IMG/VR virus record: IMGVR_UViG_3300032050_001028
Location: 1-20,315 of that record
DNA from: a virus
Length of the DNA stretch: 20,315 nucleotides
Reading direction: 5' to 3' (one strand)
Position numbers and translations under genes: made by a program. Positions 3,034-15,991 of the stretch are shown here, one piece after another; position 1 is the first letter of the stretch; the number at the start of each line of letters is the position of its first letter. Under the pieces are notes generated by a model. The model did not search any database and was not told the DNA's origin. It was given only the letters and a program-made list of their open reading frames with translations.

Positions 3034-4458
3034 TTATGCTCCTAGTGCTGCGTTACAGTATTCGCAAATCCTGTTTGTTTTCTTATTTGGCATCTGACAT
3101 GAGCGACAGATAATCGCGAGGTTCTGTAATCCTGTCAAGGAAACTGAACCATCTTTGAGTTCTGTAAGTGCCCATACTAGAGCATCAAGTCTATCGGGTG
3201 ATGTGGCTGTATCAGGAGTCCACATTACCATTTGGTCTTCCAACTGTGGAAATGCGCCGACATGATGAACGCGGAACTGTTCGTAGAGAGCCGAGATGGG
3301 TTCTGCTCTTACTCTTTTTCCTCGCGTTGCGTGAACTTTGGTGACAGGAACATTTCTATCGACCTGTTGAAGAACCATGACGACCATATCTCCGCCATTG
3401 TTTGTTTCGGCGACAATGCGGTCTGCTTTCCATTGATGAAACGCTTCGACTGCGCGTTTGCCCCATTCGTTTGGAGTAGCGCGTAGAGTGTCATCAGAGA
3501 GGATATAGAACTGTCCGTCTGATGATGCTCCTGCTGTGATGATTCCTGTTTCATCGCTATCTTCTCCGCTGGTTACTGCTGGGTCAATGGCTACAACTAT
3601 GCGATACAGAGGTGGCAATTTATCTGCCGTGATTCTGCTTCGTTCTATCCAATCGCGTTGCCATAGTGCGCCTTCTGCCTGTTCTAGCAGTTCGCCGTAT
3701 AACTCTTGCCTTCCTGTGCGCGTACCTTCGTAGCGCGCCTTCAGTTCCGCAAGTGCGGTTTCCGATAAATTCTTACGATTATCAAAAGTGCTTCCGCGTG
3801 TGATATGTACTGAGCCATCGGTGCGTGTCACCCAATCGCGTAACAGTTTGATTGGCTTTGGTGTTGTTGTAACAACTACGCGTGGGCGGTCACCAATACG
3901 CAACGCAGGAGCAAGACCTTCTGTCCATGTTTCGTAGGGATACTGCCATATTGCTAACTCGTCTAACCATGCGCCTGATAAGTTCAAGCCACGACCAGCA
4001 TCGGGAGAGTCAGCACCGAACATGTGGACTAGTTGTCCGTCTTTGAAAATTACTTTGTATGAGGACTTGTTGTAGATGTAATCCTCGTCGCGCTTCAAGC
4101 CTCTGTGTTCTAGTGCTTTGATGAATCCACTAGGACCTTCTACGCAGATGTTCTTCGCATCGCTGAAAGTCGGCGCGATGATTGCCCATTGTGTCGGCAC
4201 ACCATCAGGAGCCTTCGGGTTATCAATAACCTGCTTGGCTAACCATTCGCCACCAGTTCTTGTTTTGCCCCAACCACGACCTGACAGAATAAGCCAAACA
4301 TTCCAGTTGCCTTCGGGTTCCTGCTGTTCAGGTCTGCCGATATACCACCATGGTTTACGAACAAGGTCATAAACTAATTGCGGTGGAAGCGCATCAATCC
4401 AGCGTTGGCGTTCCGCTCGGCTCTTCTGCTGATACTTCTCCGCTATTGATTGACTCAT
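3034..4458 (-). CDS. terL: Terminase large subunit (ATPase-nuclease) with C-terminal zinc ribbon
   Basis: The motor that cuts concatemeric phage DNA and pumps it into the prohead through the portal. The 474-residue protein has a Walker A SGRGWGKT at residues 59-66, Walker B AWLDE (163-167), the coupling motif TTTPKP (197-202), and RNase-H-like nuclease acidic residues D292 in VAIDPAV, E351 in VAETNNGGD and D425 in PDRLDAL. A GAAGG ribosome site lies 5 nt before ATG 4458; the gene overlaps the small subunit gene by 65 nt. Unusually, the last ~24 residues form a zinc ribbon, C451-x2-C454 ... C465-x2-C468, beyond the normal nuclease end. The family assignment is firm; the role of the ribbon (DNA, portal or capsid contact) is not known. 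Confidence 0.95.
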   Translation of the reverse strand: MSQSIAEKYQQKSRAERQRWIDALPPQLVYDLVRKPWWYIGRPEQQEPEGNWNVWLILSGRGWGKTRTGGEWLAKQVIDNPKAPDGVPTQWAIIAPTFSDAKNICVEGPSGFIKALEHRGLKRDEDYIYNKSSYKVIFKDGQLVHMFGADSPDAGRGLNLSGAWLDELAIWQYPYETWTEGLAPALRIGDRPRVVVTTTPKPIKLLRDWVTRTDGSVHITRGSTFDNRKNLSETALAELKARYEGTRTGRQELYGELLEQAEGALWQRDWIERSRITADKLPPLYRIVVAIDPAVTSGEDSDETGIITAGASSDGQFYILSDDTLRATPNEWGKRAVEAFHQWKADRIVAETNNGGDMVVMVLQQVDRNVPVTKVHATRGKRVRAEPISALYEQFRVHHVGAFPQLEDQMVMWTPDTATSPDRLDALVWALTELKDGSVSLTGLQNLAIICRSCQMPNKKTNRICEYCNAALGA

Positions 4459-4873
4459 TATCGCCTTCTTCTAGAAATGCCAAGACCGCCTTCTTTGCTT
4501 CTTCTAGCGACAGAGGAACAGGCTTACCTTCGGGACCTGAAATCTCCTGCCGAATCTTATCGTTGCGACCCCATCTATCGCCATGCTTGCGTTCTAGATA
4601 CCATGCTGCTGCTTGCCATGTTCCGTTGTCTGCTGCTTGACGGATACGAGCCACATTCGTAACTTCGGCTTCCGCTTCTGCTCTTTTTATAGACTCCCGA
4701 AACTCCCGATAAATCTTAGATGCGTTGGGCTTTGACCCCATATCTAACCAGCGATAGAAAGTTGTTTCGCCGATGCCGTTCATTTCAGCAGCAATCTTTG
4801 AGTAGTTACCTGCGCGTATAGCGAGGCAAATGCGCTCTTGTAACTCTTGTGTGAGTTTGAGTGGTCTAGACAT
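4394..4873 (-). CDS. terS: Terminase small subunit
   Basis: A 159-residue DNA-recognition subunit of the packaging machine. The N-terminal helix-turn-helix LTQELQERICLAIRAGNYSK...GIGETTFYRWLDMG is typical of TerS. It is followed by the helical oligomerisation region (FRESIKRAEAEAEVTNVARI, AADNGTWQAAAWYLERKH) with the RWGRND motif, and an acidic C-terminus that overlaps the large-subunit gene by 65 nt. A GGAAGG site lies 8 nt before ATG 4873. The start overlaps the last 8 nt of the glycosyltransferase gene, so packaging genes are read in the same transcript as the DNA-modification genes. Confidence 0.88.
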   Translation of the reverse strand: MSRPLKLTQELQERICLAIRAGNYSKIAAEMNGIGETTFYRWLDMGSKPNASKIYREFRESIKRAEAEAEVTNVARIRQAADNGTWQAAAWYLERKHGDRWGRNDKIRQEISGPEGKPVPLSLEEAKKAVLAFLEEGDNESINSGEVSAEEPSGTPTLD

Positions 4874-5663
4874 TCTGAAGCCTTCCGTACTTTGCGTGGG
4901 TTATTGGCTTCAACTTCATGCTGACTGCTAATCCATCTTTGAGTTTGACTTTGGCTAAATCGGGATAGCGTGATTCAACCCAATGTAGTTCTGTGGAGTG
5001 CCGTTCCGCCCTGCTGATGCCTTCTGTTTCTTTCACCATAGCATCTATGCCACCCTTAGCCCAATACTTGGTTTTAGGACATAGATATTCGGCGCGTACT
5101 ACCGCACCATAGCGAGTGAATGCTCTGAGTGTGCTGTGATGGTCTTCGCCTGATGAAGTCATGCGGCGTTCAGGGTCACAATGAACCCAGTCGCCAGCGA
5201 TTGCGCCCATAAAATTAGCGCAAATGAATCGCAGACCAACTGTTACATAATCTTTCATAAAGAAAGCATTCTGAACAGGATTGATGCCCCACAGCGTAGT
5301 TTGTTCTTTCGCTGTTATGTCGAACATCGTATTGACGAACTCAACAAGGTTGCCAGCGAAAGGAACTAATTTATCACCTATCTTCTCCAATAGGTCATCA
5401 ATGTCATCATCAAGACTAAATACGCGAGTACCTTTCTGAAAGTAATTCAGATAGAACTTGCGTTGTGATGATATGCCCTTCACGCCGACAACAATGTTGT
5501 ATGACGGTCCGATAGTTGCGCGATATCTGATGTATTCATCTTCATCGGCAACGAACACGAATATACGCGAAGGTTCAATGTTATGTCTTGCTAGAAATGC
5601 GAGAGTTTGGTCACGACAGATTTCCTCACGCTTGTATGAGGGAACAGCAACAACAAAGTCCAT
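4866..5663 (-). CDS. GT-A-fold glycosyltransferase, TET-associated type (TAGT-like)
   Basis: A 265-residue glycosyltransferase predicted to add sugar to hydroxymethylated bases made by the dioxygenase encoded just upstream. It opens with the nucleotide-sugar binding strand MDFVVAVPSYKREEICRDQT. The expected metal-binding acidic motif of GT-A enzymes is FSLDDDIDDL (D85-D87), preceded by the GVKGISSQRKFYLN helix typical of the TET-associated family. A second acidic patch SSGEDHHSTLRAFTRYG (E173, D174) lies where the catalytic region is expected. No membrane segment or signal peptide is seen, so it acts in the cytoplasm, on DNA. Its ATG shares the A of the upstream TGA (TGATG), with no good independent ribosome site, implying re-initiation after the dioxygenase gene. 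GT-A fold is strong; the sugar donor and precise family assignment need profile searches. Confidence 0.8.
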   Translation of the reverse strand: MDFVVAVPSYKREEICRDQTLAFLARHNIEPSRIFVFVADEDEYIRYRATIGPSYNIVVGVKGISSQRKFYLNYFQKGTRVFSLDDDIDDLLEKIGDKLVPFAGNLVEFVNTMFDITAKEQTTLWGINPVQNAFFMKDYVTVGLRFICANFMGAIAGDWVHCDPERRMTSSGEDHHSTLRAFTRYGAVVRAEYLCPKTKYWAKGGIDAMVKETEGISRAERHSTELHWVESRYPDLAKVKLKDGLAVSMKLKPITHAKYGRLQNV

Positions 5664-6547
5664 CAGCGTTTGCCGACTTTGAACTCCGTTTCACCTTTTA
5701 CAGCCGAAGCAAGACCGACCTCGCGTTCTGTTCTTCTTTTACGCGCCTCCGCTTGTTCAACTGCGTAGGTGAAGCAATCCTTCATACCACGCAAGCAATA
5801 ATAAACAACTGTGTATCTGTATGCGTCTTTTGTTACATGCGCAATCGGTGTTACGCCATGAAGCAGACGGAATCCCGGGAAAAACAATACCCAGCCATCG
5901 CGACATTCAATCGTCAATCCGTATTCAGGCATTGACAATGCTCCGCCTCGTGTGCCTCTACGAATAACAGGCATCGCTGACCACATATCAAAATTGTTTC
6001 CGTCATAGTGATAAGGCAGCGTAGAAGTCTTGTTGATAACTCCGCTAGTCCATAGCGAGTCTTCGCTGATACGCCACTCTTTATCTACTTCGCTGGTTTC
6101 TTGAACATCAGCGTCATATACATCAGGCGCAATCTTGCGCATAATCTGTGAGAGTCTATCTGCGGTACGCTCTAATACTTTATGAACATCAGGTTGGTCG
6201 TATGACAATGATGTTGGGCGGCATGCTTCGCGTGTTTGAAATGGTTTGCGTGGTGCCATACCGAAAGTGCGTGAATGATTTTCTGTGCCTGTTGATTGGC
6301 GTGTTACGCCTGATGATGAATATTTGACATCGCGAACTGCTGCGCGAAGTTCAGGAACCATGTCAGTAGGCATAGGCATATAAACCATAAATGGTTCGCC
6401 TGTTTCCTCATCAACATAAATACCAGCCTCGGTGATATTTGGTTCAATATCAGGTACGAGTTCGCCACGCATTTCGCGCACGGCTTTCTTGTCAATGAGT
6501 CGCTTGACTTTGACTACGGGTAAGTCTGTATCAACTGCGGTTGTCAT
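5663..6547 (-). CDS. TET/JBP-family Fe(II)/2-oxoglutarate dioxygenase (5-methylpyrimidine hydroxylase)
   Basis: A 294-residue enzyme expected to oxidise the 5-methyl group of 5-methylcytosine or thymine in DNA, using Fe(II), O2 and 2-oxoglutarate. The double-stranded beta-helix core is seen from about residue 165. The iron ligands H180 and D182 are in LPYHYDGNNFDMWSAMP and H230 is in FRLLHGVTPI. The 2-oxoglutarate-binding arginine R244 is in YRYTVVYYCLRGM. The intervening strands TRGGALSMPEYGLTIECRDG and VLFFPG match the phage TET/JBP pattern, as does the upstream RTFGMAPRKP motif (about 93-102). The ~90-residue N-terminus is not recognised. The ATG overlaps the TGA of the ParB-like gene (ATGA), and the stop overlaps the glycosyltransferase start. 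All catalytic residues are present, so it should be active. Substrate base is unresolved. Confidence 0.88.
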   Translation of the reverse strand: MTTAVDTDLPVVKVKRLIDKKAVREMRGELVPDIEPNITEAGIYVDEETGEPFMVYMPMPTDMVPELRAAVRDVKYSSSGVTRQSTGTENHSRTFGMAPRKPFQTREACRPTSLSYDQPDVHKVLERTADRLSQIMRKIAPDVYDADVQETSEVDKEWRISEDSLWTSGVINKTSTLPYHYDGNNFDMWSAMPVIRRGTRGGALSMPEYGLTIECRDGWVLFFPGFRLLHGVTPIAHVTKDAYRYTVVYYCLRGMKDCFTYAVEQAEARKRRTEREVGLASAVKGETEFKVGKR

Positions 6548-7182
6548 GATGGTATCTCTTGTCCTGTATATTCAGAAATTACTTTCAATATCGCTTCTGC
6601 GTTACTGTCTAACGAAAACTTATCGCGTAACTCTGTGAGGCGTTCAATCACCCATACATATTGAGGATTAGGATATTCGCACATCAATAATCTAATTGTG
6701 CGTTCCGCATATCTATCGGCGCGTTCTTCTAGTGTTGGTCGCTTTTGAACATTCTCGTATTGTGCTGTTGTCTGCGCGACTTTCCATTCAGGCATTTGTT
6801 TTTCTTCAATGAGTGCGAGCAAATCATCAACATCAGCAGGAACATAACCAGTTCCAACTAAATCAATCTCGCCTAACAAATCTAATAGTTTCTGTTCATC
6901 ATATACACCAAGGTCAGCAAGACGATTATCAGCAGCAACAATTTTCTTTGCTTGCGCATCATCAACATCTAACTCAACAACATCTATTGTTTTCCAACCA
7001 AGTTCTTGTGCTGCTTTCCACAAGTGATTACCGGCGAGGATTTGACGCGTTGATTTCTGAACCACAATCGGTCGGTATTGTCCGTTGGCTTCTAATGATT
7101 CAACAAGTGCCTTGACATTACCTTTGCGTGGATTGCCCTCAAATTCTTTGAGAGTATCTATCTGTACTGAAATAGTTTGCAT
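6544..7182 (-). CDS. ParB-like N-terminal nuclease-domain protein
   Basis: A 212-residue protein with a ParB/sulfiredoxin-type domain. The signature pieces are EFEGNPRKGNVKALVESLEA (about 14-33), GQYRPIVVQ, QILAGNHLWKAAQELGW (the GNHxxxA box) and AADNRLADLG. The C-terminal ~100 residues are helical and unassigned. In phages, stand-alone ParB-like proteins often sit beside DNA methylases and TET/JBP genes, and some have NTP-dependent DNA-binding or nuclease activity. Here it starts the modification operon with a strong GGAGG site 4-5 nt before ATG 7182, and overlaps the dioxygenase gene by 4 nt. It could help load or target the modification enzymes on DNA; that is an inference. It is not a partition system: no ParA is present. 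Confidence 0.82.
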   Translation of the reverse strand: MQTISVQIDTLKEFEGNPRKGNVKALVESLEANGQYRPIVVQKSTRQILAGNHLWKAAQELGWKTIDVVELDVDDAQAKKIVAADNRLADLGVYDEQKLLDLLGEIDLVGTGYVPADVDDLLALIEEKQMPEWKVAQTTAQYENVQKRPTLEERADRYAERTIRLLMCEYPNPQYVWVIERLTELRDKFSLDSNAEAILKVISEYTGQEIPS

Positions 7183-11226: not shown

Positions 11227-12160
11227 TTTTCACCGCCAATCTGTCAGTTGGTTGTCCGTACTTGTAGGGCACAGTACCGAGCAGTTCCGCTACGGCTTTT
11301 TCATCTATTGTCTTGCGACCAGCAACTTGCGACCACGCAATCTTGATACCTGATTGTGTGATGCCATTGACGCCTTCTAATACAGCCTTGATAGAATCTT
11401 TCTGTTCTTCAAGTTCGCTGATTCGTTTTGTTATTTCTAGATATTCCTGCGCGACTGTGTCAATCGCATTATCCTCAATAACGACGCCTTCCAGTTCTGC
11501 TTTTGGGCGACCAGCGCATCCTTTCTGCCCTGTTTCATCATAGAAACCGCAGTACAACTTACAGAACGATGCTTCTTTCTCAGGCGCAGGTGGCGTATCG
11601 GCGAATTTGATTTCACCGAGCCAAGCCATAGCCTCATTGACAACATTGATATCAAATGGTTCTGAGTGATACACAATATCGCGCTCGTCACCATCACGCG
11701 GAATACATACCAGCGTAACAGTATCAACTTTGTGTCCAGCAAGTTCAACTAGCCAGCCGTATATCTGTACCTGCCAACGCTGTTGCTTGCTAGGAAAATA
11801 ACGCAGATTAGATTTCTTAGTTGATTTCCAATCTACGATTTCATGCTTTTCTTTGTCGTATAAATCAACATGACCGACAATCATGCCATCGTCAGACTGC
11901 CATTCTTTTTCAATCAAATAGCGTTCTTCAAATGGGTCTTGACGGCGGAATGCTTCCTCTATGTAATTATGAATTGCCGTTCCCATAATTGCGCTGAGGC
12001 GTAGCGTGTTCGGATTAGTAATCTCTGCTCCGTTCAATCTACGCCACGCCTTGTGTCGGCATCCACCTATTTCAGATGGTCCAATGTTTTTCTGCTTGCT
12101 ACGAGCATCAGATTTGCTTGCGCTCGTGACCATCTTGATTAGTTCATTTGCTATGGACAT
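11213..12160 (-). CDS. Cas4/RecB-like PD-(D/E)XK exonuclease with Fe-S-type cysteines
   Basis: A 315-residue nuclease expected to resect double-stranded ends so that the Bet/RecT protein can anneal strands. Active-site features are H64 (GTAIHNYIEEA), D99 (GHVDLYD), D110 and K112 (HEIVDWKS) and the QVQIYGW (Q130, Y134) motif IV. Four cysteines bracket the domain in Cas4/AddB fashion: C34 in SEIGGCRHKAW and C200, C204, C215 in SFCKLYCGF...KGCAGRP, likely ligating a 4Fe-4S cluster. The C-terminal ~90 residues contain a coiled-coil (LEITKRISELEEQKDSIKAV) and a small sheet. I prefer ATG 12160; a GTG at 12169 lies on top of the ribosome site. It overlaps the next gene and is overlapped by the preceding one. 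Confidence 0.87.
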   Translation of the reverse strand: MSIANELIKMVTSASKSDARSKQKNIGPSEIGGCRHKAWRRLNGAEITNPNTLRLSAIMGTAIHNYIEEAFRRQDPFEERYLIEKEWQSDDGMIVGHVDLYDKEKHEIVDWKSTKKSNLRYFPSKQQRWQVQIYGWLVELAGHKVDTVTLVCIPRDGDERDIVYHSEPFDINVVNEAMAWLGEIKFADTPPAPEKEASFCKLYCGFYDETGQKGCAGRPKAELEGVVIEDNAIDTVAQEYLEITKRISELEEQKDSIKAVLEGVNGITQSGIKIAWSQVAGRKTIDEKAVAELLGTVPYKYGQPTDRLAVKNVRA

Positions 12161-12413
12161 CAACCTCACCCTTCTCTCGTTTTTCCATTAGGTCTTGTAT
12201 GTGATATCGCCAAGCGTTGAATACTTCCTGCCAAACGCCATCATCAGTTTCCATGCGGCGTAACAGTTCAACATATTCATCATCAGACAACTTAGTCTGT
12301 TCCAATGTTTCTTCTACATAATCATCGGCTTCGGCTCTGTCTAACACACACGCAAACATATCTGTATCGTCTGACAGACCTTCAATGATTTCTTTGATTT
12401 GTCTAACTTTCAT
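12144..12413 (-). CDS. Small acidic hypothetical protein
   Basis: 89 residues, MKVRQIKEIIEGLSDDTDMF at the start, strongly acidic and helical with an LSDDEYVELLRRME stretch. The opening 'mkv.elie.l..l.ddt.i' is a recurrent layout of small phage proteins with no known function. GGAAGGG lies 3-4 nt before ATG 12413. It overlaps the exonuclease start by 17 nt, so the two are made together. It could be a partner or inhibitor of host factors, but there is no direct sign of that. Confidence 0.6.
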   Translation of the reverse strand: MKVRQIKEIIEGLSDDTDMFACVLDRAEADDYVEETLEQTKLSDDEYVELLRRMETDDGVWQEVFNAWRYHIQDLMEKREKGEVDVHSK

Positions 12414-15101: not shown

Positions 15102-15764
15102 TTAGTTTTCTGTCTTGATTGGTGTGCGTAAATCTTTACGCCACTCTTGGATAGTGCTGTATTTCCATAGCGGAGTGCGACCATACTCGCGGTCAGGCTT
15201 GGGCATTTGACCACGAGCCTTGTATGAACTGATTGTCTTGGGTGATACGCCAAGCAGTTCCGCTACTTGTTTGCTTGTCAAATAGACGAGATTGTTGCCA
15301 ATCATGTCAAGATTATCTCCTTTTTTGAATGTACCTAGTCGGAACGCTTGCTCGTCCATCAACGGCCATACATACGGAATGTTGTATGGCACATCAAAGG
15401 TGTAATAATCTGAATCTTTGCGAATCAAATTAGAGCGATGCGTTAGATGAAGTAACTCGCTATTGACCCACCAAGGTGTGGCATCGGTGCCATCAATAGC
15501 GTTAGTAAATTGGTCATACAACGAGTCTTGAAAACCACGCTTGACCCACTCGGTACACATAACAGCACCATAGTTACATAGGTCGTTGATGTGACCAGCC
15601 CACATGCGTGTTGCTGGGTGATTGACCCATGCGCCTGTGTCGTTGTAATCACCGCGAAGTGCTTTGACGATTTGCCATGCCTCAACGCGTTGTTTGCCTA
15701 AACGCTTATCGTCTAAGCAACGCGCTGATACGCCATAGTTTTCGTGCGGTAGAAATGTTTGCAT
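15102..15764 (-). CDS. MSMEG_6728-type protein fused to a helix-turn-helix domain
   Basis: 220 residues from ATG 15764, which shares its A with the upstream TAA (TAATG) and follows GGGGG. Residues 1-146 match the MSMEG_6728/Pyr_excise-like family: MQTFLPHENYGVSARCLDDK, RLGKQRVEAWQIVKALRGDY, GAWVNHPATRMWAGHINDL, YGAVMCTEWVKRGFQD. That family is annotated as related to pyrimidine-dimer DNA glycosylases, but activity is not established. Residues 161-210 form a separate HTH_17 domain: YLTSKQVAELLGVSPKTISS, then LWKYSTIQEWRK. The two are joined by a Lys/Asp linker. The fusion is unusual and would target a base-recognition domain to specific DNA. It could act in repair, or guard modified DNA. Confidence 0.75.
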   Translation of the reverse strand: MQTFLPHENYGVSARCLDDKRLGKQRVEAWQIVKALRGDYNDTGAWVNHPATRMWAGHINDLCNYGAVMCTEWVKRGFQDSLYDQFTNAIDGTDATPWWVNSELLHLTHRSNLIRKDSDYYTFDVPYNIPYVWPLMDEQAFRLGTFKKGDNLDMIGNNLVYLTSKQVAELLGVSPKTISSYKARGQMPKPDREYGRTPLWKYSTIQEWRKDLRTPIKTEN

Positions 15765-15991
15765 TAGTACCCCCAAGTAAATGAACATGTCGTTGCGTCA
15801 CAGTTCCACCATGAGCCATTGATAAGCACAACGATTGCGCCAATCAACAGACCGAATGCGATACCGGTGACGATACGACCACGCCGAGTCAAGTTTGATT
15901 TTGATTCTTGTGCGTCAATAGCCATGAGGCGTAATGCCAACAGGGTTCCGAAGAACCCTGCGACAACATAAAGTATTACTGGATATAACAT
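15764..15991 (-). CDS. Small two-helix membrane protein
   Basis: 75 residues with two hydrophobic segments, MLYPVILYVVAGFFGTLLAL and GIAFGLLIGAIVVLING, separated by a basic/polar loop (QESKSNLTRRGR). The C-terminal tail has two Cys (NCDATTCSF). It has the shared ribosome box AAAGGGTAATC before ATG 15991. It could be a holin, an inner-membrane inhibitor or a host-takeover protein. The two-helix topology fits small holins, but it is not beside the transglycosylase, so I do not name it. Confidence 0.6.
   Translation of the reverse strand: MLYPVILYVVAGFFGTLLALRLMAIDAQESKSNLTRRGRIVTGIAFGLLIGAIVVLINGSWWNCDATTCSFTWGY

Follow-up and report, generated by a model that had tools for sequence, protein, structure and literature searches.

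The window analysed here is a virus fragment of 20,315 bases with a GC content of 45.7%, which represents the whole of the stretch taken from the IMG/VR record IMGVR_UViG_3300032050_001028. On its minus strand it carries a cassette of three genes, located just upstream of the terminase genes and coding for a ParB-like protein, a TET/JBP dioxygenase and a TET-associated glycosyltransferase (TAGT). The three genes and their ATGA and TGATG junctions, pointed out in an earlier note made from the sequence alone, are real: the corresponding open reading frames (ORFs) lie at 6544-7182, 5663-6547 and 4866-5663, and the glycosyltransferase (GT) gene overlaps that for the terminase small subunit by 8 nt. 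An identical cassette, with 100% identity to that of the window, is present on contig L002; megablast of the whole window against phages gave no match. The features of the region are the following:

6544..7182, minus strand: ParB-like protein, first gene of the cassette, 212 aa (PF02195, E=4.6e-9; phrog_723, E=5.1e-43)
6544..6547, minus strand: ATGA stop/start overlap of 4 nt between the ParB and TET genes, read from the sequence
5663..6547, minus strand: TET/JBP 2-oxoglutarate/Fe(II) dioxygenase, 294 aa (PF12851, E=1.6e-12; phrog_6059, E=2.6e-81)
5661..5665, minus strand: TGATG stop/start overlap of 1 nt between the TET and GT genes, read from the sequence
4866..5663, minus strand: TAGT with a GT-A fold, 265 aa (PF20691, E=2.7e-6; phrog_25200, E=1.4e-22)
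4394..4873, minus strand: terminase small subunit, 3' border of the cassette (phrog_4102, E=8.6e-36)
3034..4458, minus strand: terminase large subunit, landmark adjoining the cassette (PF03237, E=4.2e-22; PF17289, E=6.2e-17)

The dioxygenase is a member of the TET/JBP family, as the earlier note had proposed, and Pfam, profile comparison and fold concur on this. It scores above the curated cut-off of Pfam Tet_JBP (47.4 versus 34.9 bits), and the same family is matched, at the search threshold, by all 47 aligned dioxygenases. H180, D182 and H230, which form the HxD...H Fe(II) triad, and the 2-oxoglutarate-binding R244 are invariant in these 47 sequences; both the residues and their numbering had been given correctly in the note. 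In the Protein Data Bank (PDB), the family profile matched human TET2 and Naegleria Tet1 across the HxD and H...R regions; profiles are needed for this comparison, since the window enzyme used as a single sequence found no PDB match. In a PDB fold search with its AlphaFold2 (AF2) model (pLDDT 83.5), the best 26 matches are CcTet, NgTet1, CMD1 and TET2, and AlkB-type enzymes follow; the TM-scores of the matches to the double-stranded beta-helix fold are only moderate (0.5-0.6), so that the fold class is secure but not the finer shape of the substrate pocket. The name "queuine tRNA-ribosyltransferase", attached to phrog_6059, was ruled out for the window enzyme because Pfam, active site and fold all indicate TET/JBP. 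The same label on actinophage TET/JBP proteins (phrog_6059, phrog_800) is an apparent misnomer, and mislabelled TET/JBP proteins, or neighbouring PF18751 kinases named "terminase small subunit", occur for example in records NC_011044, NC_042035, NC_022061 and NC_022064.

The product of the third gene is supported as a TAGT with a GT-A fold; here too Pfam and fold bear out the earlier description, that of a TAGT-like GT-A enzyme with a DDD motif. The TAGT profile is matched by 17 of 17 aligned glycosyltransferases (best E=1.3e-39), in all of which the DDD at residues 85-87, a DxD metal motif, is invariant. The AF2 model (pLDDT 87.8) retrieves from the PDB both GT-A-type structures and nucleotidyltransferases, which share this Rossmann-like fold; the single sequence gave chance matches only. 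Enzymes of the GT2 group are mostly inverting. The TAGT of phage T6, a beta-glucosyl-HMC-alpha-glucosyltransferase of family PF20691, has a GT-A fold, belongs to a sister group of GT2 and puts the second sugar on glucosylated cytosine (PMC13216743), and a beta(1-6) diglucose is found in T6-type DNA (PMC13390438). The window enzyme shares Pfam family and fold class with T6 TAGT; however, the latter is a second-sugar enzyme acting on glucosylated hydroxymethylcytosine (hmC), whereas the window TAGT would add the first sugar, since no enzyme for that step was seen among the cassette genes. Numerous solitary TAGTs of unknown function have been described (PMC13216743), and it is plausible that cassettes of the window type offer them an acceptor.

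The product of the first gene was correctly described as ParB-like, with a ParB_N domain (PF02195) above cut-off and a match to phrog_723; N17, R19, G51-N52, D85 and N86 are among its conserved residues. The box II arginine of ParB CTPases is absent: GNH stands at the canonical arginine motif, with H in 67 and G in 10 of the 77 homologues. The protein, of ParB fold, should therefore not be called a CTPase, and nucleotide binding should not be assumed for it. Upstream of TET, 80 of 83 related loci have a ParB homologue, at a distance of no more than 160 nt in 76; in the three that lack it, the contig ends no further than about 550 nt from the start of the TET gene. Tandem pairs of ParB-like genes precede TET in L030, L041, L044-L047, L050, L056, L057, L060, L061, L065, L073, L076 and L090.

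The order ParB-TET-decorator-terminase recurs in about 80 IMG/VR loci and in cultured actinophages. In the environmental loci TET is followed by a short variable slot and then by the terminase genes; among cultured phages, those of Mycobacterium cluster B, Gordonia, Rhodococcus and Microbacterium have the cassette at the left end of the genome, and Arthrobacter phages have it internally. Three types of slot can be distinguished. In one, TAGT stands by itself, in two copies or beside an FkbM methyltransferase; in another, the amino acid:DNA transferase ADDT (PF18724) is accompanied by a P-loop kinase (PF18751) or by a flavin or PLP-type enzyme; the last holds unassigned families of about 315 aa and of 308+148 aa. 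The window slot holds TAGT only, and neither the kinase of 5-hydroxymethyluracil (5hmU) type nor ADDT is found in it. Among cultured phages, TAGT followed by a PIG-L deacetylase is present in Rich, Indlovu, Prairie and Altadena, and ADDT in LittleMunchkin, Reprobate, Tonitrus, Zemanar and Kozie. PF18751 was detected in all 11 cultured phages tested that have it, or have a gene annotated as terminase small subunit or adenylate kinase, in the slot; the gene next to TET in Nigel, KayaCho and Terij, annotated as terminase small subunit or hypothetical, codes for a PF18751 kinase. Compared with the PDB, the ADDT profile matched the solved glycinyltransferase 8z2m (4.4e-7) and 25qc (3.7e-16), and the best profile matches of the FAD enzyme were the flavin-dependent lyases 8z2o/8z79 (3e-9), while the slot enzymes as single sequences had no PDB match. 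These glycinyltransferase and flavin-lyase names fit the N-alpha-GlyT/5-NmdU pathway, which figures in a title cited in PMC11946847.

Other slot genes extend this repertoire. The PIG-L/glucosaminyl deacetylase gene lies directly 3' of TAGT in cultured Mycobacterium and Arthrobacter phages (L084:2441-3028, L091:7544-8134, L095:2470-3048, L097:7484-8077), a hint that N-acetylglucosamine (GlcNAc) may be moved to DNA and then deacetylated. An FkbM-type methyltransferase gene follows TAGT at L011:11642-12259 and also in L012, L013, L015 and L017, and follows ParB-TET in pelagiphage HTVC112P (L186:4560-5258); it is possible that this enzyme methylates the DNA-bound sugar. A family of 315-326 aa occupies the slot after TET at L004:1541-2488, with homologues in L010, L043, L051, L056, L057, L079 and L080; it has no Pfam, PHROG or PDB match, and its motif DGGGTQYxFLEAxDA resembles the donor site of GT-B glycosyltransferases. 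Finally, a two-gene unit between TET and terminase codes for a protein of 308-312 aa and a HAD-like one of 148 aa (GYDIDGVLA) at L025:10864-11790 and 11787-12233; homologues occur in L027-L029, L032-L034, L040, L046, L047 and L049, with no family match. On a reading of motifs, slot families c8 and c6 may be GT-B glycosyltransferases; the c8 family profile had no match in the PDB.

As for the host, the window TET is 54% identical to a TET on a contig assigned to a metagenome-assembled genome (MAG) of Actinomycetota, where ORFs of matching length flank it on both sides, and the cultured relatives infect mostly Actinomycetota; because of the MAG match and of these hosts, an actinobacterial host is likely.

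The gene content of the relatives also bears on the base that is modified. If the TET product is constant across the clade, the decorators reveal what it is. Mapped on the TET tree, the slot changes between TAGT and ADDT/kinase at least 7 times, and the exchange takes place between very similar dioxygenases: the TETs of Rich (TAGT, PIG-L and kinase) and Reprobate (ADDT, flavin enzyme and kinase) are 91% identical, those of L067 (TAGT) and L059 (ADDT-type and PLP-type) 84%. In none of 63 environmental loci does TAGT share the slot with ADDT or the kinase, 21 being TAGT-only and 16 ADDT/kinase (Fisher p=5.5e-4, a value that is only indicative, the loci being related). The 5-hydroxymethyldeoxyuridine (5hmdU) DNA kinase phosphorylates 5hmdU inside DNA (PMC7653180), and a route from 5hmdU through the kinase to the transferase has been described (PMC6449724). 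Genes for C5-cytosine methyltransferases (PF00145) were absent from all 14 complete cultured genomes with a TET of the window type and from the 17 closest contigs, and none of 66 records had the thymidylate-synthase-fold enzymes of PF00303, which include nucleotide hydroxymethylases. Thus neither a cytosine-methylating enzyme nor a pool route to 5hmU is seen, and hydroxylation of thymine in DNA would explain both. A contrast clade, with TETs tied to C5-methyltransferases, was sought through the TETs of S-CBWM1, P-HS2 and DLP_6 and gave no positive contrast: one scan returned the query alone and the others TET clades almost without PF00145. Taken together, the comparison makes it rather likely that the substrate is thymine in DNA and not 5-methylcytosine (5mC), and the window TET most probably hydroxylates thymine in DNA.

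It is accordingly as a probable system for hypermodification of phage DNA after replication that the cassette is read here, with TET converting thymine to 5hmU and TAGT glycosylating it to a base-J-like nucleotide. In this pathway the ParB-like protein would assist or direct the dioxygenase on DNA; with Fe(II), O2 and 2-oxoglutarate, the TET/JBP enzyme would hydroxylate the 5-methyl group of thymine; TAGT would then move a sugar from a nucleotide-sugar donor onto the 5hmU hydroxyl, leading to a glycosyl-5hmU similar to base J; and the sugar would protect the DNA against host nucleases. Since the cassette genes adjoin those for terminase, the modification is perhaps finished before packaging. 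The earlier note had foreseen a glycosylated 5-hydroxymethyl pyrimidine in the phage DNA; this is still the best explanation, and comparative genomics would narrow the pyrimidine to thymine.

Several points weigh against thymine as the target and favour the pathway of characterised phage TETs, in which 5mC, produced by a phage or host C5-methyltransferase, is oxidised to 5-hydroxymethylcytosine and glycosylated by TAGT. The TETs characterised in eukaryotes act on 5mC, and so does the studied phage TET of Burke et al. 2021, together with glycosyltransferases, according to PMC12730594; T6 TAGT works on glucosylated hmC (PMC13216743); and PF00145 turns up in 5 of 49 related contigs, 2-11 kb from TET. 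With only 20 kb of the phage in the window, a methyltransferase may lie elsewhere in its genome, and host methylation could provide 5mC. In addition, the link of PF18724 and PF18751 to 5hmU comes from the biochemistry of other phages only, the PF18751 kinases of Nigel, Zemanar, Reprobate and KayaCho are annotated as terminase small subunit, and Rich and Indlovu hold TAGT and kinase together, so that the two branches are not strictly exclusive. The window GT itself matches PF20691 marginally, with 27.9 bits against a cut-off of 27.5 and over residues 5-93 only. Conversely, the lack of PF00145 in the complete cultured genomes and closest contigs, and the 5hmU-type kinase, amino acid:DNA transferase and flavin lyase genes adjoining close TET relatives, argue against 5mC, which we regard as an unlikely candidate. 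Two contigs bearing ADDT, L064 and L070, have a C5-methyltransferase in two separate pieces about 2-3 kb upstream of the cassette (G040:15657-17339, G045:29723-30915), possibly split or decayed.

Two other explanations depart further from DNA glycosylation by the cassette. TET could make an oxidised pyrimidine while the GT acts off DNA, on the virion surface or a host glycan, the adjacency being incidental; GT-A folds are shared by many carbohydrate-acting enzymes, and phage glycosyltransferases glycosylate capsids too. However, the recurrent slot right after TET, with overlaps of 1-4 nt, the replacement of the GT by DNA base-modifying enzymes in relatives, and the TAGT family itself, whose T6 member works on DNA, render this improbable. 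Still less probable is a place for the dioxygenase in a different 2-oxoglutarate family, such as AlkB-like repair enzymes or RNA demethylases, with the cassette working in repair or RNA modification: AlkB-type enzymes do appear lower in the fold list (E ~1e-7), but the best matches are all TET, CcTet or CMD1, Pfam finds Tet_JBP in every aligned sequence, and the decorator context is one of DNA hypermodification. Hydroxylation of thymine in DNA followed by its glycosylation thus remains the preferred reading.

Cassettes of this kind are already known: cultured actinophage ParB-TET-decorator sets are in GenBank, and in Tonitrus (PMC11955845) and CaiB (PMC9302106) they have been described as predicted thymine or nucleotide modification systems, predictions that their own authors trace to Iyer et al. 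2013 and Lee et al. The operons of Mycobacterium phages Rich and Indlovu, Arthrobacter phages Prairie and Altadena, Rhodococcus phage Tonitrus and Gordonia phage CaiB have the gene order of the window, adjoin terminase in most cases and code for TETs of the family of the window enzyme, with 38-48% identity. Rich, Indlovu, Prairie and Altadena also share TAGT with it; however, the window slot holds TAGT alone, without PIG-L deacetylase, kinase or ADDT, the actinophage TAGTs are only 26-28% identical to the window GT, and the host of the window phage is uncultured.

In kinetoplastids, base J is produced by the thymidine hydroxylases JBP1/JBP2 and a glucosyltransferase (PMC12730594). The window cassette would follow the same two-step logic, a TET/JBP enzyme hydroxylating thymine in DNA and the resulting 5hmU being glycosylated, and a beta-linked glucose on 5hmU would equal base J itself. 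Differently from base J synthesis, no J-binding domain is seen in the window and the GT belongs to the phage TAGT family; moreover, base J is a transcription mark, whereas the predicted window modification is presumed to be armour. The pathway of Burke et al. likewise combines a TET dioxygenase with glycosyltransferases in DNA modification, but it uses a C5-cytosine methyltransferase, which the complete cultured relatives lack. Phages M6, ViI and phiW-14 and the N-alpha-GlyT/5-NmdU pathway have kinase, amino acid:DNA transferase and flavin lyase types also found beside relatives of the window TET. M6, ViI and phiW-14, however, bring in 5hmdU via the nucleotide pool (PMC6449724), whereas TET would here make 5hmU in DNA, and theirs is an amino branch, that of the window a sugar branch.

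Two further features of the window lie outside the cassette. The minus-strand ORF at 15102-15788 combines a PF03013 pyrimidine dimer DNA glycosylase domain with a C-terminal MerR/HTH_17-type DNA-binding domain, and the terminase large subunit (3034-4458, minus strand) ends in a zinc-ribbon-like CxxC...CxxC tail, with a weak DZR match.

What the analysis adds to the known cassette type is that the gene content of relatives points to the most likely target base. TET/JBP enzymes are thought to originate in phage-bacteria conflict, and the phage TET studied biochemically works on methylcytosine; the TET clade of the window type is large and common in environmental and actinobacterial phages, and if it oxidises thymine, the origin of base J would be tied to phage DNA armour, which may serve in the evasion of restriction or CRISPR. 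The target base is directly testable, since cultured relatives grow on laboratory Mycobacterium smegmatis. We lean, with some reserve, towards a model in which a swappable slot stands behind one ParB-TET core, so that a phage equivalent of base J, a glycosylated 5-hydroxymethyluracil, would arise entirely after replication through a TET/JBP thymine hydroxylase, and sugar, amino-acid and other decorators would interchange in evolution. If this is true, there would be a post-replicative path to thymidine hypermodification with interchangeable end groups, and the unassigned slot enzymes could be new DNA-decorating catalysts.

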